This document shows, piece after piece, positions 9,892 through 34,612 of a stretch of DNA of 64,000 nucleotides. The position numbers and the translations under genes were made by a program. The DNA is from a virus. Below the pieces are notes generated by a model. The model had not been told where the DNA came from. It ran no database searches and saw only the letters and a list, made by a program, of their open reading frames with translations. The number at the start of each line of letters is the position of its first letter. Positions within the stretch are counted from its first letter, which is position 1. The stretch is from IMG/VR virus record IMGVR_UViG_3300032316_000329, positions 62,001 to 126,000 of that record, one strand, 5' to 3'.

Positions 9892-10092
9892 ATGGCACTT
9901 ACAACAGATCAATTAGACCAATTGGAATACAGAAAAGCTGAACAAGTAATATCATTAAAATCCGAAATGGTTCGAGTAGCAAAAGATATTCTGATAGAAA
10001 ATAGTCGTAATAGTCCTGTTTCTGAAAGAGAGATAACCTCAAATAATGTTATTCAATTTGCAAGCGATCTGATTAACTTTATAATAGAATAA
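9892..10092 (+). CDS. Small unknown helical protein
   Basis: The protein has 66 residues with a strong Shine-Dalgarno (aaggag) before the ATG. It appears mostly helical and charged (LDQLEYRKAEQVISLKSEMV) with a more hydrophobic C-terminus (VIQFASDLINFIIE). It lies between a fibre gene and the first of three 2OG-Fe(II) oxygenase-like genes. I do not recognise a family. The strong ribosome-binding site and position in an uninterrupted gene row support it being real. Confidence 0.5.
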   Translation: MALTTDQLDQLEYRKAEQVISLKSEMVRVAKDILIENSRNSPVSEREITSNNVIQFASDLINFIIE

Positions 10093-10107: not shown

Positions 10108-10689
10108 ATGGAATATATGTTGACACCATATAGTGATAAAATTGAATCTTTTGTTTACTGGGAAAATGCTTTTAACAAAGAGGAGTTAAACTATCTTCAA
10201 AATATTGCTGTGAAATCTCAACAAAATTCTTATGTCTCTGGAGGTGAAAACGGTATAATTAATGAAGATATTAGAAGATCAAAAGTTACTTGGTTACATA
10301 ACAATAAAGACTCTGAATGGTTATATCAAAGAATTGCTAATATTGTGTCTGAGTTGAACTCAAGGTTTTTTAGATTCAATCTGACTGGATTTGGTGAACC
10401 TTTTCAATTAACAAACTATGATAGTAGTTATCAAGGTACATATAATTGGCATCAAGATTTTGGTAGTAAAATAAGTAGGAAATTGTCTTGTGTTATGCAG
10501 TTAACAGATCCAAGTGAATATGAAGGAGGTAATCTAGAAATAATGACCTCTTCTACTTCTACAAAAATTAATAAATGTAGAGGTCTGATAACAATTTTTC
10601 CCTCTTGGACTTTACATAGAGTTTCTCCAGTTACGCAAGGTAGTAGACAATCTTTAGTTTCTTGGATATCGGGCCCGGAGTTTAAATAA
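10108..10689 (+). CDS. 2-oxoglutarate/Fe(II)-dependent oxygenase, prolyl 4-hydroxylase-like
   Basis: This 193-residue protein shows the double-stranded beta-helix signature of prolyl 4-hydroxylase-like enzymes. Iron ligands fit H115 and D117 (in NWHQDFG) and H170 (in PSWTLHRVSPV); R180 (in GSRQSLVSWI) is the expected 2-oxoglutarate-binding Arg. The GGNLEI segment before the distal His is also typical. The family hydroxylates protein side chains or small molecules using O2 and 2-oxoglutarate. Its stop overlaps the start of the next oxygenase (TAATG). Such enzymes are common in T4-like cyanophages, but their substrates are mostly unknown; a fibre protein is a plausible substrate here. Confidence 0.8.
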   Translation: MEYMLTPYSDKIESFVYWENAFNKEELNYLQNIAVKSQQNSYVSGGENGIINEDIRRSKVTWLHNNKDSEWLYQRIANIVSELNSRFFRFNLTGFGEPFQLTNYDSSYQGTYNWHQDFGSKISRKLSCVMQLTDPSEYEGGNLEIMTSSTSTKINKCRGLITIFPSWTLHRVSPVTQGSRQSLVSWISGPEFK

Positions 10690-11282
10690 TGAGAACTGAA
10701 TTTAAAGAATTTTTTGGTATTTTTGATGATGTTTATCCTGAAAACTTTTGCGAACATTTGATAAATGAGTTTGAAAGAGTTCGGCAAGTTGGAGCAGGAA
10801 GCAACAGAATTAATTCAGAGGGCACTCTTCGCCATTATAAAGATGATTATCAGATATTTGATTTCAAATCGAGAGATTTGATAGATTTTGAACAGCAGAG
10901 ACCTGTGGATGTCTTTTTCAACGGACTTCAAAGTTGTTTTGAACGATATACCGAAAATTTTTCTACACTAAAGGACGTCAACATATATTGTGACACACTA
11001 AAAGCGCAAAAAACCGATCCCGGACAAGGGTATCATATTTGGCACGCCGAAAAGTCCTATAAAGAAATACAGAGAGTATTAGTTTATTGTTTATATTTGA
11101 ATAATCTTGAATCAGATGCCGGAGGCGAGACCGAGTTTTTATATCAAAGAATAAGATTCAAACCTATAAAAAACAGAATGTTAATTTGGCCAGCAGATTT
11201 TACTCATGTTCATAGAGGAAATGTTGTTCTAGGAAATGATTCAAAATATGTTATAACAGGATGGTTCCATTATGATAAATGA
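10689..11282 (+). CDS. 2OG-Fe(II) oxygenase-like protein, HxE variant
   Basis: The product has 197 residues and is the second oxygenase in the tandem set. The core reads YHIWHAEKS (H119, E121), then GGETEFLYQ, RMLIWPADFTHVHRGN (H175 probable distal ligand) and SKYVITGWF (K186 in the position of the 2OG-binding base). The first carboxylate is Glu instead of the more common Asp, which some members of the superfamily have. The stop overlaps the next gene by 11 bases, so translation is coupled. The substrate is unknown. The family assignment rests on the order and spacing of these motifs. Confidence 0.65.
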   Translation: MRTEFKEFFGIFDDVYPENFCEHLINEFERVRQVGAGSNRINSEGTLRHYKDDYQIFDFKSRDLIDFEQQRPVDVFFNGLQSCFERYTENFSTLKDVNIYCDTLKAQKTDPGQGYHIWHAEKSYKEIQRVLVYCLYLNNLESDAGGETEFLYQRIRFKPIKNRMLIWPADFTHVHRGNVVLGNDSKYVITGWFHYDK

Positions 11283-11874
11283 ATATTTTAATTTTTTTAA
11301 ACAAAAAGGATATGTATTCATTCCGAATTTAATTGATGATCATTCTATAAAGATGGTATCTAAATATTTTGAGAACTGTTTAAAACAAAATCTATGGAAA
11401 TTAAAAAGCAACGATAATGATAAGGATTTGATAAGTTCATACAGTAGATATGCTGATCCTTTAGTAGAGATTATTTTGGAAAATTGTGTAGAAGATGTAA
11501 AGACTGTAACAGGTAAATCAGTAGTTCCAACATACTCATATTCAAGAATATATCTTAAAGGGGATGAATTAAAGAGACACACTGATAGACCTTCTTGCGA
11601 ATATTCAGTAACAGTTAATGTTGCTTCGGTAGGAGAAAAGTTGTCCCCTGTTTGGGTTAAGGCATTTAATGGTGAATCTAGAAAATATAATTTACAACCA
11701 GGTGATGCAATAATATATAAAGGTTGTGAGATAGAGCATTGGAGAGATCCTCTTACGGACACCGATATAAATGTTCAATTCATGTTACATTATGTTGATT
11801 TAAATGGACCTTATGCTGAATACAAGTGGGATAAAAGAGAATCCTTAGCTTTACCTAGTTCAGAAAGGAAATAA
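11272..11874 (+). CDS. 2OG-Fe(II) oxygenase-like protein
   Basis: The third tandem oxygenase-like gene encodes 200 residues. The likely iron triad is H103 and D105 (in LKRHTDRPSCEYS) and H156 (in GCEIEHWRDP), with R158 near the 2OG site and LQPGDAIIYKG forming the usual turn before the distal His. It starts inside the previous gene and ends one base before the glycine-rich fibre gene at 11876. This tight coupling to a fibre with many X-Pro-Gly sites suggests, but does not prove, that it modifies that fibre or another virion protein. Confidence 0.65.
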   Translation: MINEYFNFFKQKGYVFIPNLIDDHSIKMVSKYFENCLKQNLWKLKSNDNDKDLISSYSRYADPLVEIILENCVEDVKTVTGKSVVPTYSYSRIYLKGDELKRHTDRPSCEYSVTVNVASVGEKLSPVWVKAFNGESRKYNLQPGDAIIYKGCEIEHWRDPLTDTDINVQFMLHYVDLNGPYAEYKWDKRESLALPSSERK

Positions 11875-11875
11875 T

Positions 11876-12817
11876 ATGTCTTTGATTTTTTCAAGGATTG
11901 GTAGACTTGGTGCAGGGTTAACGCCAGGTGGAACACAAACATTCAATTCAACAGGGACATTTACAATTCCTTCTGGAGTTACTAAAGTAAATGTTACTGG
12001 TTTAGGTGGAACAGGTAATCCTGGAAATCCAGGTAATCCAGGAACTCCCGGAGGAGGTGCTGGTGGGGGTGGAGGCGGCGGCGCAGGAGGCGCAGGTTCA
12101 CCATGGACGCCAGGCGGTACAGGTGGAGCCGGATACGGATCACCACAGCTGGCAGCGCCGCCCAGTTGGCCGGTAAATAATAGACAATGGAATGGACGCA
12201 GTGGAAGCTATTACTCTGCGCCCGCGGGTACTACCGGTACATCGGCCGATTGTGGACCTTCAGCTTGTAAGTACGGATCACCATTGGGATTATCCGGAAA
12301 TCCCGGCAGTGCTGGAATAGCGGGAAATCCATCTACAGCTTTTGGTTATAATTTTGCTGGAGGAAACTCAGGACCAGGGGGAACAGGCGGTTCGGGCGGA
12401 ACTACTGGACCTGGCGGGTATGGAGGAGGTGTAGGTCCATTAAATGTTGCTACTGCTGGTAATCCAGGTGGAGGTCCAGGGGCAGGAAATGGTGGCGCAG
12501 CTGGTGGGCCCCCTTCAACGCCAGGACAAAGTTTTGTTGGAAAAAACGGCAATCCGGGCACTTTATTTCAAAACTCAGGTGGAGGAGGAGGAGGCGGCGG
12601 CTTCAAGGCGGTAGGCTCACCGTTCACTCCCGACAATGGATCAGGTGGTGGAGGAGGAGGCGGCGGCCAATCTGGTAATCCAGGTAATTCAGGTGGGCCA
12701 GCTGGTCCTGTATCTCCATCTCAATTCAACTGTATTCCTGTCACCCCAGGTAGTCCTTATCCAATAGTAGTCGGATCTTCAGGTGGTCAAGTTACGATTT
12801 CGTGGAATCCACAATAA
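11876..12817 (+). CDS. Glycine-rich fibre with collagen-like Gly-Asn-Pro repeats
   Basis: The product has 313 residues. After a beta-rich start (GTQTFNSTGTFTIPSGVTKV) comes GNPGNPGNPGTPGGG at residues 47-61. A long Gly-rich region follows with more than ten further X-Pro-Gly sites (WTPGG, GNPGS, GPGG, GNPGGGPG, STPGQ, GNPGT, GNPGN, VTPGS). It ends VGSSGGQVTISWNP, the closing strand seen in other glycine-rich phage adhesins. Pro placed directly before Gly is the classical target context of prolyl 4-hydroxylases, and three oxygenase-like genes end immediately upstream. Collagen-like phage fibres are known; hydroxylation here is only inferred. Codon use is GC-rich because of the glycine. Confidence 0.65.
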   Translation: MSLIFSRIGRLGAGLTPGGTQTFNSTGTFTIPSGVTKVNVTGLGGTGNPGNPGNPGTPGGGAGGGGGGGAGGAGSPWTPGGTGGAGYGSPQLAAPPSWPVNNRQWNGRSGSYYSAPAGTTGTSADCGPSACKYGSPLGLSGNPGSAGIAGNPSTAFGYNFAGGNSGPGGTGGSGGTTGPGGYGGGVGPLNVATAGNPGGGPGAGNGGAAGGPPSTPGQSFVGKNGNPGTLFQNSGGGGGGGGFKAVGSPFTPDNGSGGGGGGGGQSGNPGNSGGPAGPVSPSQFNCIPVTPGSPYPIVVGSSGGQVTISWNPQ

Positions 12818-12831
12818 TTTGAGGTTATAAA

Positions 12832-13293
12832 ATGAAACTAGAAAATATGTCTAATTTAGAACTTAATGAAGAACTAGATAAACATGAGAAGTATATGTCT
12901 CTTTGTTCTTCAAAAGAAAGAATAAACAGAGCAAGGTCGTTTTGTGTTGGTACTGCTTTTGGAAACACGACCGAGATCATTATGAGAGCAGATGATAAAT
13001 ATATATGGGCAACTTTCAATCAACAAGAGATAGTTGAAATTATACATCAACTTGCTTCTAATATTGGATGTAACATATCTTTACAGCCAAGAGACGATTT
13101 TGCTTCTAGCGAGAGATGGAAAAATAGTAAAGAGAATACACCCTTAAATACTATATTTAATTCCTACTCTACTGTTTTTCATGGTTTACCAGGTTCTCCA
13201 GGATATAGTTTATACAACGAAGCGGGAACAAATAATCCTAGAGAAGTGCCGGGTGGATTAGGCGGCGGCCAAAGATTACCGGAAGAAGAATAA
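12832..13293 (+). CDS. Unknown protein with Gly/Pro-rich tail
   Basis: The protein has 153 residues. The N-terminal about 45 residues are charged and helical (LELNEELDKHEKYMSLCSS). The middle is mixed alpha/beta (RADDKYIWATFNQQEIVEII). The C-terminus is flexible and Gly/Pro-rich (HGLPGSPGYSLYN, REVPGGLGGGQRL) and also contains X-Pro-Gly sites, although fewer than the preceding fibre. It lies between the glycine-rich fibre and a putative fibre chaperone, which suggests a fibre-related accessory protein. I do not recognise a family. Confidence 0.45.
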   Translation: MKLENMSNLELNEELDKHEKYMSLCSSKERINRARSFCVGTAFGNTTEIIMRADDKYIWATFNQQEIVEIIHQLASNIGCNISLQPRDDFASSERWKNSKENTPLNTIFNSYSTVFHGLPGSPGYSLYNEAGTNNPREVPGGLGGGQRLPEEE

Positions 13294-13307: not shown

Positions 13308-13715
13308 ATGTCCATTCTATGGCAACTAAAAAAGATTTCTACAGGGGAACCATTAAATGAACCTCAGGTTCTTCCCGAAAACTGGGGACCTATCTTCGGT
13401 ATGGAGGGTTTTAAAGATAAATTAAGTGATTTATCTTGGGTTGGTATTGAAGATCAAGGCTGGTTTATTGTTGGTGAAGGTGAAGGTTCTTCTCCTCAGA
13501 CAACTCCAAAGAAAGTTTTGGAATGGGAAAGAGCAAAACAACTATTAAGAGATTCAGATTGGTCTATGATGTCTGATGTTCAAATGACCAATGCTGAAAA
13601 ACAAGCATGGGAATTATATAGAAAGAATTTAAGAGAAATTACATTACAAAGTGGATTTCCTGATAATATCAAATGGCCTACTATTCCTGAGACACCTAAA
13701 TTTAATATGATGTAA
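13308..13715 (+). CDS. Putative tail fibre assembly chaperone (Phage_tail_APC-like)
   Basis: The protein has 135 residues with a good ribosome-binding site (aggagaat). The C-terminal half carries the chaperone pattern also seen in the gene at 8477: RAKQLLRDSDWSMMSDVQMT, then WELYRKNLREIT and FPDNIKWPTIPE. The N-terminal 70 residues differ completely from the first copy (ILWQLKKISTGEPLNEPQV), as expected if each copy serves a different fibre. It probably helps fold or attach one of the neighbouring fibre proteins; the partner cannot be told from the sequence. Confidence 0.6.
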   Translation: MSILWQLKKISTGEPLNEPQVLPENWGPIFGMEGFKDKLSDLSWVGIEDQGWFIVGEGEGSSPQTTPKKVLEWERAKQLLRDSDWSMMSDVQMTNAEKQAWELYRKNLREITLQSGFPDNIKWPTIPETPKFNMM

Positions 13716-13734: not shown

Positions 13735-14367
13735 ATGTATAATGATGTTATAAGATTTGACTATTTTCCATCTTCAATTTTTCGTGTTGAAAAGTATGAA
13801 TATTTGAACAATGTAAAAAATGTTTCTTATGAATATTTGAAAAAATCTAATCAAACAACAAAATTTAATGAAATATATCCTGTAACGATGACAGAAAATT
13901 TTAATAATGATGTAAGGCTATTAGATTTTACAGGATATATTTCTCAACTTGGGTGGGACATATTATCTTCACAAGGATATAGTGTAGAAGATAAACAAAC
14001 ATATATTACTGAAATGTGGTTACAAGATCATCAAAAATATTCTTCTATGGACTATCATGTGCATGGAGGAGATACTAAATTGATAGGATTTTATTTTTTA
14101 GAATGTTACGACAATGGATCAAAACTATCATTTCATGATCCAAGACCGAGTAAAATACAATCTGGTATACCAGAAAATAATATTGAAGAACTAACATATG
14201 CTAGTAATTCAGCTATGTTTACTCCCAAACCAGGAACATTAATAATTGCTAATTCTTGGTTGCCTCATTCTTTTACCAGAAATCCTTTAGATAAACCTAT
14301 AAGACTTATTCATTTTTGTCTAAGTATAGGTTCATTCCGAAATAATAATTCAGCAATAATAGTATGA
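13735..14367 (+). CDS. Putative 2OG-Fe(II) oxygenase (2OG-FeII_Oxy_5-like)
   Basis: The product has 210 residues. The second half follows the 2OG-FeII_Oxy_5 pattern: an aromatic/acidic strand, MDYHVHGGD (H108/H110), GFYFLECYDNGSKLSFHDPR with the family's DPR, PKPGTLIIANSWLPHSF (H178, distal iron ligand) and PIRLIHFCLS (R190, probable 2OG ligand). It is the fourth oxygenase-like gene of the fibre region and of a different subfamily from the three at 10108-11874. Its stop overlaps the next start by four bases (ATGA). The substrate is unknown. Confidence 0.65.
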   Translation: MYNDVIRFDYFPSSIFRVEKYEYLNNVKNVSYEYLKKSNQTTKFNEIYPVTMTENFNNDVRLLDFTGYISQLGWDILSSQGYSVEDKQTYITEMWLQDHQKYSSMDYHVHGGDTKLIGFYFLECYDNGSKLSFHDPRPSKIQSGIPENNIEELTYASNSAMFTPKPGTLIIANSWLPHSFTRNPLDKPIRLIHFCLSIGSFRNNNSAIIV

Positions 14368-23248: not shown

Positions 23249-24406
23249 ATGCCAAATTTTAATAGTCCAGAAGGCGAACTAACTGATCTGTTTATGACGG
23301 ATGTAAGTATCCTGGATAGTTTTGTTGGTAATGAGTTGTGGGGATGGGGACGTAATGGTTATGGACAACTTGGTGACAACACAAGAACCAAAAGATCCTC
23401 ACCAGTCCAGACCGTATCTGGTGGAACCAACTGGAAGTTCGTTGCTTGTGGTTTTAATTACACCACTACCATTAAAACAGATGGAACGTTGTGGTCGTGG
23501 GGAGGAAATAGTTATGGTCAACTAGGTGATAACTCCAGAACCCATAGATCCTCTCCAGTCCAAACTGTATCTGGTGGTACCAATTGGAAACTAGTTGCTT
23601 GTGGTAGTTATCACACCACTGCCATTAAAACAGATGGTACCCTTTGGACCTGGGGTCAGAGTATTTATGGTCAACTAGGTGATAACTCAACAAACAATAG
23701 ATCCTCACCAGTCCAGACCGTATCTGCTGGTACAAATTGGAAACAAGTTGCTGGTGGTTTCAATCACACCACTGCCATTAAAACAGATGGTACATTATGG
23801 ACATGGGGAGGTAATGGTTATGGTCAACTAGGTGATAACTCAACAACCAGTAGATCCTCACCAGTTCAGACCGTATCTGCTGGTACCAATTGGAAACAGG
23901 TTGCTTGTGGTCAACACACTGCCGCCATCAAAACAGATGGTACATTATGGTTGTGGGGACGTAATGAATACGGTGCACTAGGTGATAATACAACAACCAA
24001 TAGATCCTCACCAGTCCAAACCGTATCTGGTGGAACCAACTGGAAACAAGTTGCTGGTGGTATTTACCACACCGCTGCCATTAAGACTGATGGAACCCTT
24101 TGGACCTGGGGATATAATACTGACGGTCAACTAGGTGACAATACAACAACCGATAGATCCTCACCAGTCCAAACCGTATCTGGTGGTACCAACTGGAAAC
24201 AGGTTGCTGGTGGTCGGTTTAACACTGCTGCCATTAAAACTGATGGTACATTGTGGGGATGGGGACGTAATACTGACGGTCAACTAGGTGATAACTCCAT
24301 AACCCATAGATCCTCACCGGTCCAGACTGTATCTAGTGGAACCAACTGGAAACTGGTTGCTGGTGGTAGTTATCACACTGCTGCCGTAACCTATACAGAA
24401 TCATAA
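23249..24406 (+). CDS. RCC1-repeat seven-bladed beta-propeller protein, copy 1
   Basis: The 385-residue protein has a short unique N-terminus of about 30 residues followed by seven RCC1-type blades of about 51 residues. Each blade has the core LWxWGxNxxGQLGDN, then SSPVQTVSGGTNWK, VACG and HTTAIKTDGT. Positions inside the WGxNxxGxLGDN loop vary (RNGY, GNSY, QSIY, RNEY, YNTD) while the rest is nearly constant. RCC1 propellers bind proteins or surfaces in many organisms. In a phage fibre region a receptor-binding or decoration role is likely, but no phage homologue of known function is recalled. Two similar copies follow at 25099 and 26820. Confidence 0.75.
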   Translation: MPNFNSPEGELTDLFMTDVSILDSFVGNELWGWGRNGYGQLGDNTRTKRSSPVQTVSGGTNWKFVACGFNYTTTIKTDGTLWSWGGNSYGQLGDNSRTHRSSPVQTVSGGTNWKLVACGSYHTTAIKTDGTLWTWGQSIYGQLGDNSTNNRSSPVQTVSAGTNWKQVAGGFNHTTAIKTDGTLWTWGGNGYGQLGDNSTTSRSSPVQTVSAGTNWKQVACGQHTAAIKTDGTLWLWGRNEYGALGDNTTTNRSSPVQTVSGGTNWKQVAGGIYHTAAIKTDGTLWTWGYNTDGQLGDNTTTDRSSPVQTVSGGTNWKQVAGGRFNTAAIKTDGTLWGWGRNTDGQLGDNSITHRSSPVQTVSSGTNWKLVAGGSYHTAAVTYTES

Positions 24407-24423
24407 TAAGAGGAAACAAAAAG

Positions 24424-25089
24424 ATGTTTGTAATCGTTCAAGACAATTTTGTAATAGATGGACCAAGGGATTGGAACAAGAAGAAGTTTGAAGAAGTTCT
24501 TTTAGAAGATTGTGAAGTAGATTTCACACTTGAAACCAGAAACGAATCCAACCTTCCAATCGTTGTTTCCGACACTGTTAAGATTCTTCCGGTAACCAAA
24601 CTTCCTGATCCAGTATTTAATTCCAAGACACAGATTCTTCAAGGGCCATTCTGGAACCTATCAGACACATTGGCCGAAGAATATTACACCGCGCAAGATA
24701 TGCCAGTGGATGCTGTTAAGAACTTTCTTACCTCTATTGTTGCTAATGCTCGGTATATTAAAGAAACTGCTGGTATTAAAATGACTATTCAAGGAACTCA
24801 GGTTTCTGTTGATACTGCTCGTGGTTCAAGAGATATATTCTTTCAGGCATTTTTATCTATTGGTGAAACTGAAACAATGAACTGGAAGTTTCCTGAGACC
24901 TGGTTAGAACTCACAAAGAGTGATCTGGGTTTGATTGTTTCTGCGGGTCGTAACCATATTCAGACATCTTTTGATTGGGAGAATGGTTGGGTCAATAGAG
25001 TTAGTGCTGCTGTTACATTGAATGATCTTAATACACTTTATAATGAACTGGAAGCGGAATTAAAACCACAGACAAATCCAACAGTATAA
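24424..25089 (+). CDS. DUF4376-like protein
   Basis: The 221-residue protein has a Shine-Dalgarno (agagga) 10 bases upstream. The N-terminal about 80 residues are variable. The rest has the pattern of DUF4376-containing phage proteins: YIKETAGIKMTIQGTQVSVD, then RDIFFQAFLSIGE, MNWKFPETWLELTKSDLGLI and AGRNHIQTSFDWENGW. Such proteins often accompany tail fibre genes and may act as attachment or assembly factors. It lies between two RCC1-repeat genes, suggesting it serves those adhesins. Confidence 0.55.
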   Translation: MFVIVQDNFVIDGPRDWNKKKFEEVLLEDCEVDFTLETRNESNLPIVVSDTVKILPVTKLPDPVFNSKTQILQGPFWNLSDTLAEEYYTAQDMPVDAVKNFLTSIVANARYIKETAGIKMTIQGTQVSVDTARGSRDIFFQAFLSIGETETMNWKFPETWLELTKSDLGLIVSAGRNHIQTSFDWENGWVNRVSAAVTLNDLNTLYNELEAELKPQTNPTV

Positions 25090-25098
25090 GGTCGTATA

Positions 25099-26316
25099 AT
25101 GGCATATGGTTCAAATACAAATTATACTATTAGTGGTGTTGATGTAGGTAGACAACTTGTAACTAAAAGTTACTTGATTGATGTTTATCCATCTTTGGTT
25201 GGTACGTTTAAACAGGCAGGGTTATGGACCTGGGGGCGTAATGGTGCCGGTCAACTAGGTGACAATACAACAACCGGTAGATCATCTCCAGTTCAAACTG
25301 TATCTGGTGGTACAAATTGGAAACTGGTTGCTGGTGGTGGTTATCACACTGCTGCCATTAAGACTGATGGAACCCTATGGACCTGGGGAGGTAATTCTTA
25401 CGGTGCACTAGGCGACAATTCAACAAACTTTAGATCCTCACCAGTCCAGACTGTATCTGCTGGTACAAATTGGAAACAGGTTGCTTGTGGTTTTTTTCAC
25501 ACTGCTGCTATTAAGACTGATGGAACGTTATGGTTATGGGGAGATAATAGAAACGGTCAACTAGGTGACAATACAACAGCCCATAGATCCTCTCCAGTCC
25601 AAACTGTATCTAGTGGAACTAACTGGAAACTGGTTGCTAGTGGTCGTTATCACACCGCTGCCATTAAAACCGACGGAACCCTTTGGACCTGGGGAGCTAA
25701 TTATTCCGGTCAACTAGGTGACAATTCAACAAACCGTAAATCCTCACCAGTCCAGACCGTATCTGGAGGAACCAACTGGAAACTGGTTGCTTGTGGTGGT
25801 TTTCACAATGCTGCCATTAAAACTGATGGAACCCTTTGGACCTGGGGAGCTAATTATGCCGGTAATCTAGGTGATAACTCAATAACCAGTAAATCCTCAC
25901 CAGTCCAAACCGTATCTACTGGTACAAATTGGAAACTGGTTGCTGGTGGTAGTAGTCACACCTCTGCCATTAAGACTGATGGAACCCTATGGACCTGGGG
26001 ACATAATGGTTACGGTACACTAGGTGATAACTCCAGAACCCATAGATCCTCACCAGTCCAGACCGTATCTGGAGGAACCAACTGGAAACTGGTTGCTTGT
26101 GGTGGTTTTCACAATGCTGCCATTAAGACTGATGGAACCCTTTGGACCTGGGGATTTAATGCTTACGGTGCACTAGGTGATAACTCCGAAACCCGTAGAT
26201 CCTCACCAGTCCAAACCGTATCTGGTGGAACCAACTGGAAACAAGTTGCTGTTGGTGGTTATTACACTGCCTGTATCCGTGACGATTCAGCAGACATTTT
26301 CGGAAACACTATATGA
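25099..26316 (+). CDS. RCC1-repeat seven-bladed beta-propeller protein, copy 2
   Basis: The product has 405 residues. The N-terminal about 40 residues (YTISGVDVGRQLVTKSYLID) differ from the other two copies. Seven RCC1 blades follow, with loop variants RNGAGQ, GNSYGA, DNRNGQ, ANYSGQ, ANYAGN, HNGYGT and FNAYGA in front of LGDN. The last blade ends GGYYTACIRDDS. Much of the nucleotide sequence between blades is identical or nearly so, so blades can be exchanged by recombination. Its stop overlaps the next start (ATGA). It is a probable adhesin or virion surface protein. Confidence 0.75.
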   Translation: MAYGSNTNYTISGVDVGRQLVTKSYLIDVYPSLVGTFKQAGLWTWGRNGAGQLGDNTTTGRSSPVQTVSGGTNWKLVAGGGYHTAAIKTDGTLWTWGGNSYGALGDNSTNFRSSPVQTVSAGTNWKQVACGFFHTAAIKTDGTLWLWGDNRNGQLGDNTTAHRSSPVQTVSSGTNWKLVASGRYHTAAIKTDGTLWTWGANYSGQLGDNSTNRKSSPVQTVSGGTNWKLVACGGFHNAAIKTDGTLWTWGANYAGNLGDNSITSKSSPVQTVSTGTNWKLVAGGSSHTSAIKTDGTLWTWGHNGYGTLGDNSRTHRSSPVQTVSGGTNWKLVACGGFHNAAIKTDGTLWTWGFNAYGALGDNSETRRSSPVQTVSGGTNWKQVAVGGYYTACIRDDSADIFGNTI

Positions 26317-26819
26317 TCCATCCTCTTGTGAAGATTATAACCATTGATGGTTTTTTTAGTCAAGAAGAGGCCACCAGATTAGGTGAAATAACCAGAAACC
26401 TTCAATACACTCAAAACCAATTAGGTCAAGAGATAGAACATTTCAATATGGTTCCAGAAAACGCCAATGAAATGTTCTCTTTCATTCTAAATACAAAGAT
26501 AGAGGTGGATGAAGATCGTTCAGGTATATTCAGAAAGCCAGAGTTATTCATACACTTTGAGGAATTTGATACTCTTGATGAATGGGTTTTTGTTTGTGTT
26601 CTGGAACATACTATGTTTAATATATATCAGCACGAAAGCGGTGCCAAGAGTGCTTTGGATGGGTATCAGTTTAATTACAGGAACCTTATGGAATGGGGTT
26701 CTAATACAAAAGTTTCCTATGAACTATTGCCTGGAGAAGGCGTTCTGTTTAGACCGTGGTTGTTTCATTCGTTTAGTGGTGGTTTAATTCAGATATTCAG
26801 ATTAAAAGAGAGAGAATAG
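26313..26819 (+). CDS. Conserved phage protein, possible double-stranded beta-helix fold
   Basis: The 168-residue protein starts inside the stop of the RCC1 gene (ATGA) and ends directly before the next RCC1 gene. It has LFIHFEEFDTLDEWVF, HESGAKSALDGYQFNYRNL and LLPGEGVLFRPWLFHSFSGG, then IQIFRLKE. The Pro-Gly turn and H152 in WLFHSF resemble the C-terminal half of a 2OG-Fe(II) oxygenase or cupin; H81 and E83 could be the other metal ligands. The usual catalytic motifs are not clear, so it may be a degenerate or different fold. Similar proteins occur in T4-like cyanophages as far as I recall. Confidence 0.45.
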   Translation: MIHPLVKIITIDGFFSQEEATRLGEITRNLQYTQNQLGQEIEHFNMVPENANEMFSFILNTKIEVDEDRSGIFRKPELFIHFEEFDTLDEWVFVCVLEHTMFNIYQHESGAKSALDGYQFNYRNLMEWGSNTKVSYELLPGEGVLFRPWLFHSFSGGLIQIFRLKERE

Positions 26820-27971
26820 ATGCCAACTTTTTATCAGGTTAACGGTGTATCGTTTGATGATCTGTTTGTAAGAAATGATTCATTCACAGAAGGTGGGTTG
26901 TGGACCTGGGGAAATAATGGTCTGGGTGAATTAGGTGATAACTCCAGAACCCATAGATCATCTCCAGTCCAAACCGTATCTGCTGGTACAAATTGGAAAC
27001 AGGTTGCTGGTGGTGGTAATCACACCGCTGCCATTAAAACTGATGGAACATTATGGTTATGGGGTAGTAATTTTTTTGGCCGATTAGGTGACAATACACA
27101 AACCGATAGATCCTCACCAGTTCAAACTGTATCTGCTGGTACAAATTGGAAACAGGTTGCTTGTGGTGGTACTCATACCGCTGCCATTAAGACTGACGGA
27201 ACCCTATGGACATGGGGACGTAATTATAATGGCCGATTAGGTGACAATACAACAACCGATACAACCTCACCAGTCCAAACCGTATCTGCTGGTACAAATT
27301 GGAAACAGGTTGCTTGTGGTGGTAATCACACCGCTGCCATTAAGACTGATGGAACCCTTTGGACCTGGGGACGTAATACTAACGGTCAACTAGGTGATAA
27401 CTCTTTAACCCATAGATCCTCACCAGTTCAAACTGTATCTGGAGGAACCAATTGGAAACAAGTTGCTGGTGGCGATAGTCATACTGCTGCCGTTAAAACT
27501 GATGGAACATTATGGATGTGGGGAGGCAATAGTTATGGTCAACTAGGTGATAACTCTTTAACCCATAGATCCTCACCAGTTCAAACTGTATCTGCTGGTA
27601 CAAATTGGAAGTTTGTTGCCAGTGGATATTATGCACATACTGCTGCCATTAAGACTGATGGAACCCTATGGACATGGGGACGTAATAATTTCGGTCAACT
27701 AGGTGATAACTCTTTAACCCATAGATCCTCACCAGTTCAAACTGTATCTGGTGGTGCCAATTGGAAACAAGTTTCTTGTGGTCGTTTTTACACAACTACC
27801 ATTAAAACTGATGGAACCCTGTGGACATGGGGACGTAATAGTTATGGTCAACTAGGTGATAATACAACAACCGGTAGATCATCACCAGTCCAAACCGTAT
27901 CTGCTGGTACAAATTGGAAACTAGTTGCTTGTGGCACTTATTTTACCGTCTCCATCCGAGATCAGTGGTAA
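26820..27971 (+). CDS. RCC1-repeat seven-bladed beta-propeller protein, copy 3
   Basis: The product has 383 residues and starts at the base after the previous stop. The N-terminal about 28 residues are FYQVNGVSFDDLFVRNDSFT-like. Seven RCC1 blades follow with loop variants NNGLGE, SNFFGR, RNYNGR, RNTNGQ, GNSYGQ, RNNFGQ and RNSYGQ. It ends CGTYFTVSIRDQW, close to copy 2. All three copies keep seven blades, the number needed to close a propeller, which argues that they are folded and selected rather than random repeat expansions. A late-type promoter follows downstream. Confidence 0.75.
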   Translation: MPTFYQVNGVSFDDLFVRNDSFTEGGLWTWGNNGLGELGDNSRTHRSSPVQTVSAGTNWKQVAGGGNHTAAIKTDGTLWLWGSNFFGRLGDNTQTDRSSPVQTVSAGTNWKQVACGGTHTAAIKTDGTLWTWGRNYNGRLGDNTTTDTTSPVQTVSAGTNWKQVACGGNHTAAIKTDGTLWTWGRNTNGQLGDNSLTHRSSPVQTVSGGTNWKQVAGGDSHTAAVKTDGTLWMWGGNSYGQLGDNSLTHRSSPVQTVSAGTNWKFVASGYYAHTAAIKTDGTLWTWGRNNFGQLGDNSLTHRSSPVQTVSGGANWKQVSCGRFYTTTIKTDGTLWTWGRNSYGQLGDNTTTGRSSPVQTVSAGTNWKLVACGTYFTVSIRDQW

Positions 27972-27987: not shown

Positions 27988-28020
27988 CCAAAGTTAGACA
28001 ATTATTTTATGAGGGTTGTT

Positions 28021-28566
28021 ATGATAAAGTTGAACCTTGGTTCTGGTTACAAACATATTGATGGTTATCTAAATATTGATTCGGATCCAAAGTGTAATCC
28101 AGATCACTTACTAAACCTTGAAACCGACAGACTTCCCTTTGATGATAACACGGTAGACGAAGTTCTCTGCCACCATATTCTAGAACACATTGGTGATGGT
28201 TTCATTCATTTAATGAAAGAAATCTACCGAGTTTGTAAAAACGGTGCTATACTAGACATAGCAGTTCCACATCCCAGGCACGATGTTTTCCTCATAGACC
28301 CCACTCATAAACGGCCAATCTACTCTGATACTATTGATATGTTCTCTAAAAAAAGGAACCAAAAAACTATTGAAAATAAAGGTATGGAAACAACTCTTGG
28401 TATAATGAATGACATTGACATAGAAGTATTTGCCACTGACTATGTTCTTGATGAATACTATCAAAAACTCTTTCAAACATTACCAAACGAACAATGTGAT
28501 ATAATTGCTCGGTCTTATAATAATGTTATTATTGAAATCCTAATCAAGGCAATGGTGAATAAGTGA
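28021..28566 (+). CDS. SAM-dependent methyltransferase (Methyltransf_11-like)
   Basis: The product has 181 residues from the ATG at 28021, chosen because gaggg lies five bases before it; an in-frame ATG at 28009 lacks such a site. The N-terminus KLNLGSGYKHIDGYLNID is the class I methyltransferase motif I with its following acidic residue. LPFDDNTVDEVLCHHILEHI is motif II/III as in Methyltransf_11 enzymes, and LMKEIYRVCKNGAILDIAVP is the next conserved block. Such enzymes next to glycosyltransferases often methylate sugars, but protein or small-molecule targets are possible. The next gene starts at a GTG overlapping its stop. Confidence 0.75.
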   Translation: MIKLNLGSGYKHIDGYLNIDSDPKCNPDHLLNLETDRLPFDDNTVDEVLCHHILEHIGDGFIHLMKEIYRVCKNGAILDIAVPHPRHDVFLIDPTHKRPIYSDTIDMFSKKRNQKTIENKGMETTLGIMNDIDIEVFATDYVLDEYYQKLFQTLPNEQCDIIARSYNNVIIEILIKAMVNK

Positions 28567-29885
28567 CAGTAGAATATCCAAACTGTGATCCTCTCGGAAC
28601 TGCCAAGTTTTTTATCAATTTAAAACAACCTGAAAAGGCCAAAGTTTCCCTTGATCAAGTAAAACCATATTGTCAGACAGTTCAACAGTTAGATGCTATT
28701 GGCAAACTCTATGCTGATTGTAGAGAATGGAATGATTCTCTTGAAATTGCCAAGAAGATTCATTCCCTACTTCCAAACAATCAATCCAAATATGATATTA
28801 GAACAAATATTGTTCGTTCTTTACTCAATTTAAACAATCCAGAAGAAGCACTAATTTATATCAATATGAATGAAAAGGTGAATCCAAACGATCATCCTAA
28901 TCGTATGGATAAAGCAATGGCTTTATTTCTACTAAACAAAAAAATAGAAGCCGAAGCAATACTGCGACAAATATTAGAAGAACCACATAATGATGATATT
29001 GACACAAGAGTAAAATTTAATCTAGGAACCTATGACATTAGAAATGGTAATTTTAAAGATGGTATCAAAAATTTTCTTCTTCACGGTAGAAAGTTAAATA
29101 TATGGGAGTCATATACTCTTCCGAAAAATAATTATTGGAAAGGCGATATACAACCTGGTAAAACTATTCTGATGTGTCACGATGGTGGTATTGGTGATGA
29201 AATAATCAATATAAGGTTTCAGAAACACATTAAAAAACTTGGTATGAATCCTATTTGGTTTACAGCAAGAAAAGACCTGGCTAAAGTCTTTGAAAGAAAT
29301 GGATTTACTGTAACAACAAATCCTAATGATTATAAATCTGATTGGTTGTGGTATTATTCAATGACTTCGCCAGTATTGCTTGATGTTGATGAGAATGACT
29401 TGTGGGATGGTCCTTATATAGAACCAATCAGAAAAGCAGAGAAACTTTCTGGTAAATTAAAGATCGGCCTAAAATGTGTTGGTAATCCAAAATATGATCA
29501 GGATCTAAACAGAACAGTTCCCTATAAAGAAGTTCTTGATATTTTACCAAAAGATGCGACGGTCTATTCATTTCATATTGACGAAGATATTGATGATCCT
29601 AGATTGATATCTCTTAAAGATAAGATCAAAACTTGGGACGATACGCTTGACTTTATAGATCAAATGGACTATATGATATCTAGTTGTACCTCAACAGCAC
29701 ACGCGGCATCTGCTATGGGTAAAAAGACTTTTGTTATGGTTCCTATCCTTAATTATTACCTTTGGGCAAAACCAGAAAACCACTCAAAGTGGTATTCGGA
29801 AAATACCAGAATAATCAGACAAACAACATATAAAAATTGGTATGATCCGATCAAAGAGTTGAAAGAACTCCTCAATGGTCAATAG
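28563..29885 (+). CDS. TPR protein with GT9-like glycosyltransferase domain
   Basis: The product has 440 residues from a GTG overlapping the previous stop. Residues about 1-190 show tetratricopeptide-like helical pairs (AIGKLYADCREWNDSLEIAK, VRSLLNLNNPEEALIYIN). The C-terminal part has GKTILMCHDGGIGDEIINIR, KIGLKCVGNPKYDQDLNRTV, FIDQMDYMISSCTSTAHAAS and AMGKKTF. These follow the pattern of the TPR/glycosyltransferase family 9 (heptosyltransferase-like) proteins, where the last block contacts the nucleotide-sugar. ADP-heptose enzymes are encoded 3 kb away on the other strand, making a heptosyl transfer role attractive but unproven. Confidence 0.7.
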   Translation: MTVEYPNCDPLGTAKFFINLKQPEKAKVSLDQVKPYCQTVQQLDAIGKLYADCREWNDSLEIAKKIHSLLPNNQSKYDIRTNIVRSLLNLNNPEEALIYINMNEKVNPNDHPNRMDKAMALFLLNKKIEAEAILRQILEEPHNDDIDTRVKFNLGTYDIRNGNFKDGIKNFLLHGRKLNIWESYTLPKNNYWKGDIQPGKTILMCHDGGIGDEIINIRFQKHIKKLGMNPIWFTARKDLAKVFERNGFTVTTNPNDYKSDWLWYYSMTSPVLLDVDENDLWDGPYIEPIRKAEKLSGKLKIGLKCVGNPKYDQDLNRTVPYKEVLDILPKDATVYSFHIDEDIDDPRLISLKDKIKTWDDTLDFIDQMDYMISSCTSTAHAASAMGKKTFVMVPILNYYLWAKPENHSKWYSENTRIIRQTTYKNWYDPIKELKELLNGQ

Positions 29886-30240
29886 AATTGTCAATTCGGT
29901 CAATATTAATTTAACTTCCATATCAACGAATGAACCGATTTCGGATGTTCCTTGTGGTTCGTGTAATATGTGTTGTAAGTTGTTATCACCTTTTCTCACA
30001 ACCGAAGAGATTGCTTCTGGTAAATATCCATTAAGTATAATTAACCCTTCTAATACAAACGAAGGGCCAACGGTGGTTTTGTTTAGAAATATAGAGGGTG
30101 GTTGTGGTATGTTAATAGATAATAAGTGTTCTATCTATGATGATAGACCTATTGCTTGTCGGCAATTTGATTGTCGCAGAGGTCATCATCCAAAAACAAA
30201 TATTGTGGCTAAAGAAAAGTTTGGAATTGATATACAATGA
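29875..30240 (+). CDS. YkgJ-type cysteine-cluster protein
   Basis: The 121-residue protein overlaps the end of the glycosyltransferase gene by 11 bases. It has the cluster VPCGSCNMCCKLLSPF, then GGCGMLIDNKCSIYDDRP and IACRQFDCRRGHH, the eight-cysteine arrangement typical of the YkgJ/Fe-S-or-zinc cluster family. Members are common in bacteria and phages but poorly characterised; metal binding is inferred. Its place inside a coupled glycan cassette (next start overlaps its stop as ATGA) hints at a role in modification chemistry, perhaps a metal-dependent one. Confidence 0.7.
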   Translation: MVNRIVNSVNINLTSISTNEPISDVPCGSCNMCCKLLSPFLTTEEIASGKYPLSIINPSNTNEGPTVVLFRNIEGGCGMLIDNKCSIYDDRPIACRQFDCRRGHHPKTNIVAKEKFGIDIQ

Positions 30241-31067
30241 AACACGGAAAAACAGCTGTCTATACAATCCTCAAAAACGAAAAAAAATATATTGAAAAAT
30301 GGTTATACTATGCCAATCCTTTTGACTATAAGGTTCTTCTTGACACGGGATCAACCGATGGTTCTTGGGAACTATTACAAGAATATGCCTCAAAAGATCC
30401 TAAACTAATCATTGAACAAAAAACCTTCGATCCATGGCGGTTTGATACAGCAAGAAACTATAATCTCAACATGGTACCAGAAGAAGTCGTCTGGTGCCTC
30501 TCTCCTGACTTGGACGAGTATTATTCCATCAATACACACGATGAAATGGAAGTTATTATATCTGCTGTTCCTGATATTACTTGTATTGCTTCCGATAGAT
30601 TAGATATTTATTCCCGTGTTGTTCGTGTCGGGCCTCCAAATCTACAAGCAACTAACAAGATTCACAGAAGGCACGATTATATCTGGAAAGAAAGAATCTA
30701 CGAACACATCTCCTGGAAACATGGTGGGTATGAGAAAGAATTATATTCTGATGATATCTTTCTGGTTCATGATCAAGACTTTAAAAAGAAAGAGAGATCA
30801 GAACTCTATATCAGACTAATGGAAGAGGAATGGGCCGAGAATCCTAAAAACTCATGGAATAATTGGTTTCTTCTTTATCATTACTTTAAGTCACAACAAC
30901 TGGAAAAGTATATTCCTGTTGCTTGTAATTACTTGCTATTTCACACAAAAAAACAAGATAAGAACTATGAGGATGTTACTAATACTCTAAAAGGAATTTT
31001 AGCGAGAGAGAAGATATCCGATCAACATAAACATTTAATTGTTGAAGCATTGAAGGTTGCTAGATGA
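30237..31067 (+). CDS. GT2-like glycosyltransferase
   Basis: The 276-residue protein is translated from an ATG overlapping the previous stop. The start GKTAVYTILKNEKKYIEKWL and VLLDTGSTDGSWELLQEYAS are the GT-A fold opening and the conserved acidic/GST-DGS motif of family 2 glycosyltransferases. WCLSPDLDEYYS gives the DxD-like metal site (DLD). The rest (RLDIYSRVVRVGPPNLQATN, HEDYIWKERIYEHISW-like) is typical of proteins annotated as GT2 in T4-like phages. Donor and acceptor are unknown. Its stop overlaps the sulfotransferase start. Confidence 0.7.
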   Translation: MKHGKTAVYTILKNEKKYIEKWLYYANPFDYKVLLDTGSTDGSWELLQEYASKDPKLIIEQKTFDPWRFDTARNYNLNMVPEEVVWCLSPDLDEYYSINTHDEMEVIISAVPDITCIASDRLDIYSRVVRVGPPNLQATNKIHRRHDYIWKERIYEHISWKHGGYEKELYSDDIFLVHDQDFKKKERSELYIRLMEEEWAENPKNSWNNWFLLYHYFKSQQLEKYIPVACNYLLFHTKKQDKNYEDVTNTLKGILAREKISDQHKHLIVEALKVAR

Positions 31068-31852
31068 AAACATTTCACTTTCTATCAGGATTACCTAGAA
31101 CAGGGTCAACGGTTCTTGAATCATTACTCAATCAAAATCCGCAAGTATATGTTACACCAACATCACCTCTACTACATCTATTAAATAAAAATCAAGAAGA
31201 GTTTCATCAATGTCCCGAGGTTATTGCTAATCCCGTCTCAGATATGCTTACTAATGTTTCTCGTGGTATGATAGAAGGTTGCTGGGAACACAGACCAGAA
31301 CCTATCATCATTGACAAGCATCGCGGTTGGGGTAAGAATATGCCGGCGACTACGATTGTTTTTGATAAAGAAATTAAAATGGTTGCTACTATCCGAGACA
31401 TACCTTCTATAATGGCCAGTTGGTTAACTCTTATTAGAAATCAACCAAACAACTTTATCAAAAGAACTGTTATTGAAAAAGGTTTTGAAGCAACAGAAGA
31501 AAATATGATGGCAGAAATGTGGTTTGGTCATGTTCTAGATTGTGTTGAGTCGGTTGCTATGGCAAGAAAGACAGCATCTAATAGAATGTTAGAAATACGG
31601 TATGATGACTTTATTAAAGATTCAAAACAACAGATTTCTAAAATTGAATCTTTTCTTGAACTACCTTCTTTTGAATATGATTTTGAAAACATACAAAATA
31701 ACAACATAAACAATGATCACGAAGCATTTGGATTCATTGATATGCATAAGGTCAGACCAAAGGTGGAAAAGATTGCTAAACATCCAAAAGATGTATTAGG
31801 TGATAGTCTTTACAATAGGTTTGTTGATCTTGAAAGGCAGTATTTGAGATGA
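31064..31852 (+). CDS. Sulfotransferase family protein
   Basis: The product has 262 residues. The N-terminus FHFLSGLPRTGSTVLESLL carries the 5'-phosphosulfate-binding loop (PRTGST at residues 11-16) of PAPS-dependent sulfotransferases. MVATIRDIPSIMASWL is the second conserved region (RD-P-x-x-x-x-S) that contacts the 3'-phosphate, and RYDDFIKDSKQQISKIESFL is the usual later helix. The enzyme is expected to move sulfate from PAPS to an acceptor, probably a sugar given the neighbours. Its gene overlaps both neighbours (ATGA), and the next gene encodes a probable PAPS-forming kinase. Confidence 0.75.
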   Translation: MKTFHFLSGLPRTGSTVLESLLNQNPQVYVTPTSPLLHLLNKNQEEFHQCPEVIANPVSDMLTNVSRGMIEGCWEHRPEPIIIDKHRGWGKNMPATTIVFDKEIKMVATIRDIPSIMASWLTLIRNQPNNFIKRTVIEKGFEATEENMMAEMWFGHVLDCVESVAMARKTASNRMLEIRYDDFIKDSKQQISKIESFLELPSFEYDFENIQNNNINNDHEAFGFIDMHKVRPKVEKIAKHPKDVLGDSLYNRFVDLERQYLR

Positions 31853-32274
31853 AAAAGATTTTAATTATGGGACTACCCGGTTCAGGCAAGACGACATTTG
31901 CCGAAGAGTTGAGAAAACAACTATTAGCAAAGAGTAGAACTGCGGCCTGGTTTAATGCCGATGTTATTCGTAAAATGCATAACGATTGGGACTTTTCACC
32001 AGAAGGTCGTATAAGACAGGCTAATAGAATGAGAATATTGGCCGATGGTATGATGACTGATTATGTTATCTGCGATTTTGTGGCACCAACAGAAGAAATC
32101 AGAACACAATTTAAGGCAGACTTTACAATTTGGATGGACACCGAAACAAAATCAGATTATGAAGATACTGATAAATTGTTTGAGCGTCCAACCAAATGGG
32201 ATTATATTGTTAAGATGAAAGATGTTCCTAATACAGTTAGTCCATGCGTTGAACAAATTCTGAAACTTGGGTAA
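31849..32274 (+). CDS. APS kinase-like P-loop protein (PAPS synthesis)
   Basis: The protein has 141 residues. The start KKILIMGLPGSGKTTFAEEL holds the Walker A loop (residues 8-15). The next block AAWFNADVIRKMHNDWDFSP and the Arg/Asn-rich helix after it align in order with the APS-binding region of CysC-type kinases (GD-x-x-R, FS-x-x-x-R). CDFVAPTEEIR corresponds to the F-I-S-P region. It is shorter than bacterial CysC (about 200 residues), so a different small kinase is possible. APS kinase makes PAPS, the donor used by the sulfotransferase encoded just before it. Its 3' end overlaps the convergent HldD gene by 38 bases. Confidence 0.65.
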   Translation: MKKILIMGLPGSGKTTFAEELRKQLLAKSRTAAWFNADVIRKMHNDWDFSPEGRIRQANRMRILADGMMTDYVICDFVAPTEEIRTQFKADFTIWMDTETKSDYEDTDKLFERPTKWDYIVKMKDVPNTVSPCVEQILKLG

Positions 32275-33049
32275 ACTTATGGTCAAATACTTTTCTCGCA
32301 CAACTGTATGTCTGATACTTGCCTTTAATAATCTCAGGCATATCAATGAACTTAACCGGAACATTATACTTATCAGCAACAATCACTGCCACATCTAAGA
32401 ATGAAATAGGATGGGAACAACCTAAATCAAAGATACCTTCTTTGGCATTTGTTGTAATAATCTTAATGATATCACCAACCCAAACAAAGTCACGATAGGT
32501 ATTTTCCGACCCTTTGAAAATCTTAATCACTCCATCATTCTTAGCCTGCTCCGAGAAACGATAGACTGGTGAGGTACAAAAGTCCGATTTCTTTTCATCG
32601 GCACCATATACATTGAAATAACGATAACCTGTAATCGGTGCGGTAAAAGATGACCTATTTTCCATAACCCACAAATCAACGGTATACTTAGAAACAGCAT
32701 AGTAGTTTAGTGGATTATAATCATATGTTTTATTAACCGCCATAGACTGGCCATATACAGAACCAGAAGATGCATAGTGAACAGGAATCTTATGCTTAAT
32801 GGCCTTCTCAAAAATCTCAACCGATGACTGGACATTCCATCGCATTACCTTCAATACATCTAGTTCGGTTGTATTAGAGATAGCACCTTGGTGATAAATC
32901 ATTGTAATCTTATCCCACGGTACCTGTTTTGCCAATTCAATTGGGTCACCATCTACGGCATCAAAACCATATACCTTATTACCTTGTTGTTCTAAATGCT
33001 TTACAAGGTTTCTACCAATAAATCCTTTATGTCCTGTAACTAAAATCAT
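32237..33049 (-). CDS. hldD: ADP-glyceromanno-heptose 6-epimerase HldD
   Basis: The 270-residue SDR-family protein starts with ILVTGHKGFIGRNLVKHLEQ, the NAD(P)-binding Rossmann loop. It has the HldD-type block IYHQGAISNTTELD, the catalytic Ser in ASSGSVYG (S95), the Tyr/Lys pair in NYYAVSKY (Y117, K121), and the strongly HldD-like GYRYFNVYGADE and KIFKGSENTYRDFVWVGDI. In bacteria this enzyme converts ADP-D-glycero- to ADP-L-glycero-manno-heptose for LPS core. E. coli HldD has about 310 residues, so this one is slightly short. It is the last gene of a three-gene minus-strand operon; its start overlaps the stop of the cupin gene. Confidence 0.85.
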   Translation of the reverse strand: MILVTGHKGFIGRNLVKHLEQQGNKVYGFDAVDGDPIELAKQVPWDKITMIYHQGAISNTTELDVLKVMRWNVQSSVEIFEKAIKHKIPVHYASSGSVYGQSMAVNKTYDYNPLNYYAVSKYTVDLWVMENRSSFTAPITGYRYFNVYGADEKKSDFCTSPVYRFSEQAKNDGVIKIFKGSENTYRDFVWVGDIIKIITTNAKEGIFDLGCSHPISFLDVAVIVADKYNVPVKFIDMPEIIKGKYQTYSCARKVFDHKFTQVSEFVQRMD

Positions 33050-33396
33050 TGTCCGTCTCCTGGTATAACTCTATAACTATCACTATCATAATGTGTGGTT
33101 GATACTTCTATAAGAACCGAATTGTCCTCTAGAGCCTCAATCTGATGTGGTCGACCTGGTTCATTTACCCAAGTATCACCTTCTTTAAGTATAATATTAT
33201 GTTTAGAGGCATCTTTTGTTTCTATCCAGTGGATTTTAAACATACCGCTTTGAACATAGAATGTTTCATGTTTCTTCATATGGAAATGCATTGACCCTTT
33301 TGAACCGGCCTTGTCGTGTATAAGGAGTTTGCCACAATACATTTCATTATTGGCAAAAATGACCTCTCTACCCCATTTCTTTTCAACAGTGTCCAT
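33046..33396 (-). CDS. Cupin-domain protein (sugar-phosphate isomerase-like)
   Basis: The protein has 116 residues. The start VEKKWGREVIFANNEMYCGK is the W-G-x-E opening of mannose-6-phosphate isomerase-type cupins. GSMHFHMKKHETFYVQSG is cupin motif 1 with the metal-binding His cluster, and WVNEPGRPHQIEAL is motif 2. It overlaps hldE upstream and hldD downstream, so it probably acts in the same sugar pathway, for example on an early heptose or other nucleotide-sugar intermediate. The exact reaction cannot be told from the sequence. Confidence 0.7.
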   Translation of the reverse strand: MDTVEKKWGREVIFANNEMYCGKLLIHDKAGSKGSMHFHMKKHETFYVQSGMFKIHWIETKDASKHNIILKEGDTWVNEPGRPHQIEALEDNSVLIEVSTTHYDSDSYRVIPGDGQ

Positions 33397-34561: not shown

Positions 34562-34583
34562 TATATACTCCGAGTTGTCGGAC

Positions 34584-34612
34584 ACTGTAACATAAATATA
34601 TATAGTAGTCAA
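34584..34612 (-). promoter_or_regulatory. Host-type promoter for the heptose operon
   Basis: On the minus strand TTGACT (34612-34607) is followed after 17 bases by TACAGT (34589-34584), 22 bases before the hldE start. The spacing is ideal for a sigma70-type promoter, though the -10 is imperfect. It overlaps a late-type motif on the plus strand. Confidence 0.5.
34592..34598 (+). promoter_or_regulatory. Putative late promoter before gp13
   Basis: ATAAATA lies 29 bases before the gp13 start at 34628 and inside the 17-base spacer of the opposite-strand promoter. Confidence 0.5.

Follow-up and report, generated by a model that had tools for sequence, protein, structure and literature searches.

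Conservation of an oxygenase-fibre gene cassette in uncultured aquatic phages suggests modification of their own surface fibre

A gene cassette that is conserved in many uncultured aquatic phages suggests that these phages modify their own surface fibre. In the reading that we favor, with a probability of roughly 0.73, it is a phage-encoded fibre-modification cassette in which one 2OG-Fe(II) oxygenase (oxB) would hydroxylate the proline at the Y position of the Gly-X-Y triplets of the fibre, and the other oxygenases would add further hydroxylations. Self-hydroxylation of the fibre, as proposed in an initial annotation of this DNA, is thereby partly supported. A near-obligate pairing of oxB and fibre, a predicted prolyl-hydroxylase fold and a Pro-at-Y signature together provide strong comparative support, whereas the collagen nature of the fibre, the assignment of all oxygenases as prolyl 4-hydroxylases and the part given to the protein encoded at 12832 did not hold.

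Collagen prolyl 4-hydroxylases act on a proline directly before glycine. In the collagens of E. coli prophages and other viruses, proline occurs mainly at X and rarely at Y, which the authors attributed to the absence of prolyl hydroxylases; bacteria and viruses were said to lack the prolyl hydroxylases required for hydroxylating proline at Y (PMC3368898). Prolyl 4-hydroxylase genes have been reported in aquatic viruses, where their use was termed cryptic (PMC9301287). PBCV-1 is already known to encode a prolyl hydroxylase, and collagen is known to be hydroxylated in mimivirus. A literature search that covered few subscription papers yielded no report of a hydroxylase cassette dedicated to a phage fibre.

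Results

Layout of the cassette

The stretch of DNA analyzed here (the window, 64,000 nucleotides) spans positions 62001-126000 of an IMG/VR virus record with a length of 165 kb. The phage is T4-like: its capsid protein matches those of T4-type phages, with Pelagibacter phage Mosig as best match (67% identity). As claimed initially, three overlapping 2OG-Fe(II) oxygenase genes end one base short of a Gly-rich fibre gene (Table 1). According to the ORF coordinates, oxA and oxB overlap by 1 base and oxB and oxC by 11 bases, all on the plus strand, and the fibre ORF starts one base past the oxC stop. The fourth oxygenase that had been noted nearby (oxD) is borne out by its family match; it is located downstream of the chaperone gene here and directly upstream of oxA in most relatives. 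Small proteins of cluster c7 are encoded upstream of oxD/oxA in 18 relatives. A scan for promoters and terminators remained at chance level. Because of its make-up and the adjoining tail-fibre chaperone gene, the product of the gene starting at 11876 is presumably a virion fibre.

Table 1. Genes of the oxygenase-fibre cassette in the window and the evidence for their annotation
Feature	Position	Strand	Evidence
Small protein, tentative cassette member	9892..10092	+	likeness by eye to cluster c7
oxA, PKHD/PiuC-like 2OG-Fe(II) oxygenase	10108..10689	+	PF13640 3e-14; PDB 3dkq PKHD-type hydroxylase 3e-11
oxB, prolyl-hydroxylase-like 2OG-Fe(II) oxygenase, core partner of the fibre	10689..11282	+	PF13640 1.3e-11; PDB 5c5t 6.6e-4
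oxC, putative 2OG-Fe(II) oxygenase, missing in some cassettes	11272..11874	+	PHROGs 2954, 3531
Gly-rich fibre, 313 aa, Gly-Asn-Pro triplets, proposed substrate	11876..12817	+	composition, alignment, AF2 model
Conserved protein (cluster c3), after the fibre in most cassettes	12832..13293	+	neighborhood comparison
Tail (fibre) assembly chaperone Phage_tail_APC, in most cassettes	13308..13715	+	PF16778 1e-15
oxD, PF13759-type 2OG-Fe(II) oxygenase	13735..14367	+	PF13759 6.3e-8; PDB 3bvc 1.1e-9

Conservation of the cassette across viral loci

With the fibre sequence as query, 51 viral loci were collected, 49 of which contain oxB as detected with profiles grown from the oxygenases of the window. One of the two remaining loci has just 189 bases upstream of the fibre. 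The commonest gene order is oxD-oxA-oxB-oxC-fibre-unknown gene-tail-fibre chaperone, and in most loci the last oxygenase stops at most about 13 bases from the fibre start. oxC is missing between oxB and the fibre in eight loci. Since oxB is the only oxygenase adjoining the fibre in several loci (including L090), it is considered the core partner.

For the reverse test, loci were gathered by oxB and oxA irrespective of the fibre and pooled into a non-redundant set. The oxB scores in this pool form two groups, separated by an empty interval from 190 to 220 bits. In 103/106 loci above this gap, a Gly- and PG-rich fibre is located directly downstream; the next gene is hidden by ORF calling in two of the exceptions (L042 and L043), and an unknown gene intervenes in the third (L011). 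When the fibres from the first search were left out, the co-occurrence of oxygenase and Gly-Pro fibre that the initial annotation had put forward as a check was found, with the fibre directly downstream, in all 71 new non-redundant viral loci above the gap, versus none of the 35 more distant oxB relatives that remained below it once two truncated true members had been taken out (Fisher p=8e-29, which overstates independence because the loci are related by descent). In a second fibre search, 41 of 45 fibres were preceded by oxB or oxC, the other four being one second tandem fibre, one fibre with a broken oxB and two fibres without oxB on contig fragments (L249 and L250). The gene linkage is established by these counts.

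All fibre-linked oxB sequences are found on one side of a single tree branch (support 99/98). Judged from the sequences, the association of oxB with the fibre appears to be one event that was kept without loss in the sample, rather than the result of many independent gains. The cassette is present in at least two phage types, as L035 shares the T4-like baseplate-region gene phrog_358 with the window, whereas the 59.7-kb contig of L016, for which the phage type was assigned by PHROGs, encodes a phrog_1216 portal, a phrog_38 terminase and a phrog_17 DNA polymerase.

The cassette was absent from all isolated phages searched. In INPHARED, the fibre had no match, some matches possibly being hidden by low-complexity filtering, and none of the best oxB hits exceeded about 40% identity. 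Matches of oxB in bacterial genomes were mostly distant and had no Gly-Pro fibre. The only different case, a contig binned as Verrucomicrobiales (L287, JARGNI010000079.1), encodes oxA, oxB and the fibre; it is probably a phage contig inside a bacterial bin and for that reason offers only a weak hint at the host.

In two loci, L129 (5630-9292) and L182 (6208-9870), one oxB precedes three fibre-family genes in tandem, as if a single enzyme served several alternative fibres. In the marine cyanophages S-CAM3 (L213) and S-PM2 (L214), a gp12-type short tail fibre (annotated as such in S-PM2) that is not Gly-rich is immediately followed by a below-gap relative of oxB; the two may be a further fibre-modifying pair that acts at a different site.

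oxB resembles prolyl hydroxylases

A PDB search with the oxB sequence returned the prolyl 4-hydroxylase of PBCV-1 (5c5t) as the sole match (Table 1). The same structure was the best Foldseek match (E=5.5e-10) of the AF2 model of oxB (mean pLDDT 88.8), and the 50 matches listed were all prolyl hydroxylases of the collagen, HIF, EF-Tu or algal type. The membership of the predicted fold in the prolyl-hydroxylase group, as far as the matches listed extend, establishes the fold class. Four residues are invariant among 62 oxB sequences: the candidate metal ligands H119, E121 and H175, and K186 as the candidate 2OG-binding lysine. The resulting HxE motif is unusual, as it replaces the HxD of prolyl hydroxylases; HxE occurs in some Asn/Arg oxygenases.

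The tandem oxygenases had been likened collectively to prolyl 4-hydroxylases, a likeness that holds for oxB, which by its modeled fold appears to be the only clearly prolyl-hydroxylase-like enzyme among the four. In oxA, H115, D117, H170 and R180 (HxD...H...R) are invariant in an alignment of 16 sequences. With 65.4 bits against NCBIfam PRK05467, below the cut-off of 143, the oxA sequence seems related to the PKHD/PiuC hydroxylases without being a member. To our knowledge, no fibre modification has been described for that family. The oxD protein is PF13759/TIGR02466-like and resembles PDB 3bvc.

oxC remains unclassified, with no match in Pfam and no significant relative among PDB structures; its HxD...H motif (H103, D105, H156) is invariant. 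Its possible identity as a ferrochelatase, after the name of PHROG 2954, finds no support, given this motif and the lack of any ferrochelatase match in Pfam or NCBIfam. PHROGs 2954 and 274 bear the names ‘ferrochelatase’ and ‘DNA endonuclease V’ and are matched here by 2OG-Fe(II) oxygenase-type proteins. These names are probably wrong for the 2OG-Fe(II) oxygenase group and have been copied into public phage records.

Fibres differ in C, H, K and V with the presence of oxC or of oxA/oxD, but these differences are confounded with lineage, and none of the residues was assignable to oxA, oxC or oxD.

Proline sites in the fibre

The fibre of the window contains GNPGNPGNPGTPG and, in accordance with the more than ten further X-Pro-Gly sites reported before, 15 such sites in total, a number that does not exceed a composition shuffle (12.0 expected, p=0.18). 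Three related patterns do: Asn-Pro-Gly (7 vs 0.9 shuffled, p=0.00015), Gly-X-Pro-Gly (8 vs 2.6, p=0.004) and Gly with a period of three (58 vs 32.7, p=0.00005). Besides the cassette fibre, the window encodes two Gly-rich fibres (6174 and about 20508), both of which are Pro-poor (3% Pro, with 5 and 2 PG) and match Gly_rich_2 (PF21722). The cassette fibre of the window does not match this family, and 2/34 members of the fibre family do, with a best E of 0.021.

In the 103 partner fibres, 30.1% of the Gly-X-Y-Gly triplets have Pro in the Y position, 2.5% have it in the X position, and 46% have Asn at X, versus 4.2%, 9.2% and 2.5%, respectively, in other Gly-rich proteins of the cassette loci. Asn-Pro-Gly is 7.4-fold enriched over shuffled sequences in the partner fibres, Gly-Pro is depleted, and the fibre of L090, where oxB stands alone, has 84 PG in 1091 aa. 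This establishes the site pattern. Proline at Y with Asn at X would be the pattern that prolyl 4-hydroxylases need, and it suggests that oxB hydroxylates the proline before glycine.

The protein encoded at 12832, noted initially as a further bearer of X-Pro-Gly, was considered as a second substrate. These sites are not conserved, numbering 0-3 per protein in relatives, and we have dropped this possibility.

Fold and class of the fibre

In the viral relatives found with the fibre, the ends of the protein are conserved and the middle is hypervariable. A single-chain AF2 model is confident at about residues 11-60, 141-180 and 271-313, is poor in the variable middle and displays beta strands at both ends. 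Foldseek returned no significant match for this model, only weak ones such as the ALK glycine-rich region (E 5-8). Pfam Collagen (PF01391) does not match the window fibre and matches 1/34 family members weakly; the longest strict Gly-X-Y run of the window fibre spans 5 triplets (4-6 in most relatives). The hydroxyproline-stabilized, collagen-like triple helix that was initially envisaged is not supported by these data. Some relatives come closer to collagen: a few, such as the fibre of L192 with 62.6 bits, pass the cut-off of 27.2, and that of L090 is near it (26.9).

Conserved Gly-rich stretches flanking hypervariable loops, as described for the gp38 adhesins of the T-even phages S16 and PP01 (PMC12892980), are also found in the fibre. 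By this analogy, the window fibre looks less like a collagen than like a polyglycine-II adhesin such as gp38, although no significant fold or sequence match connects the two. We know of no hydroxylation of gp38.

Other genes of the window and its relatives

At 23249-27971, small unknown genes are interspersed with genes for three fibre-like proteins that contain repeated WGxNxxGQLGDN motifs (RCC1-like by eye). The gene at 26313-26819, which is located between them, was considered as a fifth oxygenase and rejected, as its product has no family match. On the minus strand, positions 28009-34612 encode a methyltransferase, a family-2 glycosyltransferase, a sulfotransferase (PF00685 1.2e-14) and sugar-metabolism-like genes, as if the block served glycan modification. 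A small CxxCxxCC-type protein (YkgJ-like by eye) is encoded at 29875-30240, and such proteins (cluster c22) are also found downstream of the fibre in L012, L017, L028, L047 and L051; a link to the iron supply of the oxygenases is mentioned purely as speculation. A complete FtsH-like AAA/M41 membrane protease (59286-61079; PF01434 2.6e-66, FtsH_ext 5.7e-8; phrog_30773) is flanked by genes resembling recombination nuclease subunits.

Discussion

The modification that we propose would take place during infection, when the oxygenases would draw on the host cell for 2-oxoglutarate, Fe(II) and O2. The newly made fibre would be modified before it folds, on the nascent or unfolded chain, with oxB hydroxylating the proline at Y of Gly-Asn-Pro-Gly and oxA, oxC and oxD adding further hydroxylations to the fibre. 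The modified chain would then form a polyglycine/polyproline-II helix bundle with beta-strand caps, possibly with help from the 12832 protein and the chaperone encoded downstream, before the folded fibre is attached. The added hydroxyls may make inter-helix or receptor contacts, and the hypervariable loops would determine host specificity, as in the gp38 adhesins. We infer catalysis, its timing, the residue specificity of oxA, oxC and oxD, and any role in stability or receptor binding.

Alternatively, the oxygenases would target a surface glycan, a lipid, a nucleotide or a small metabolite and be mere passengers that share a host-range module with the fibre. In Kyanoviridae, 2OG-Fe(II) oxygenases commonly occur in runs without a Gly-Pro fibre, and oxA resembles PiuC/PKHD, a family with no fibre substrates known to us. 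We nevertheless consider such a target unlikely: the oxB clade is always accompanied by the fibre in our sample and its near relatives never are, oxB can be the lone oxygenase neighbor of the fibre, and the fibre bears proline at Y with Asn at X. That the fibre is a hydroxyproline-stabilized collagen triple helix, and that each of the three or four oxygenases is a collagen prolyl 4-hydroxylase, is quite improbable. The Gly-X-Pro-Gly sites with proline at Y, the resemblance of oxB to a viral collagen prolyl hydroxylase and the collagen scores of the L192 and L090 fibres would fit this picture, but the short strict runs, the near-absence of Pfam collagen matches in the family, and the matches of oxA, oxC and oxD to other oxygenase types or to none do not.

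We give least credence to the idea that oxB acts on the Asn of Gly-Asn-Pro-Gly, or that the oxygenases share the work, for instance by Asn beta-hydroxylation along with proline hydroxylation. Asn at X is indeed more frequent than proline at Y, and the HxE of oxB recalls some Asn/Arg oxygenases; all listed fold matches of oxB are nonetheless prolyl hydroxylases, and Asn at X may be purely structural. Modification of the Y-position proline by oxB remains our preferred explanation, against which we note the HxE motif itself, the L249 and L250 fibres without oxB on their contig fragments, the single association event and the lack of an assignable residue for oxA, oxC and oxD.

Among known systems, the vCPH of PBCV-1 (5c5t/5c5u) is virus-encoded like oxB and is its nearest solved relative by sequence and predicted fold. 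It differs in its algal host, the absence of a cassette and its HxD motif, and shares 17-18% identity with oxB in the structural alignment. Microbial or viral hydroxylation tied to a collagen-like surface protein is likewise represented by the prolyl 4-hydroxylase and BclA of B. anthracis and by collagen hydroxylation in mimivirus (PMC8968730), but these substrates are true collagen repeats, whereas the present fibre mostly fails collagen criteria and belongs to a conserved phage cassette of adjoining genes. The collagen-like fibres of phages and prophages (PF01391, EPclP) share Gly-X-Y repeats with the cassette fibre, yet carry proline mainly at X with few at Y (PMC3368898), in contrast to the short runs with proline at Y and Asn at X found here. 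The Kyanoviridae oxygenase runs belong to the same PHROG families (61, 81 and 2954) and are likewise in tandem and near tail genes; they score below the oxB gap, and no Gly-Pro fibre is located directly downstream in any of the 35 low-scoring loci.

A wider picture, which we put forward tentatively and rate at somewhat below even odds, is that of a distinct type of post-translational modification system in phages, formed by a mobile cassette with up to four dedicated oxygenases that moves between unrelated phage backbones. Its target would be a receptor-binding protein of the polyglycine-II type with hypervariable parts, hydroxylated on several residue types (proline, and probably also Asn or others) at sites involved in host recognition or virion stability.

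If fibre self-hydroxylation is true, a concrete substrate can be named for a phage prolyl hydroxylase, and compact hydroxylases with a defined Asn-Pro-Gly site would be on offer. One class of the aquatic oxygenase genes regarded as ‘auxiliary’ would then serve virion building instead of host metabolism, and phages would broaden the chemistry of their surface fibres by hydroxylation.
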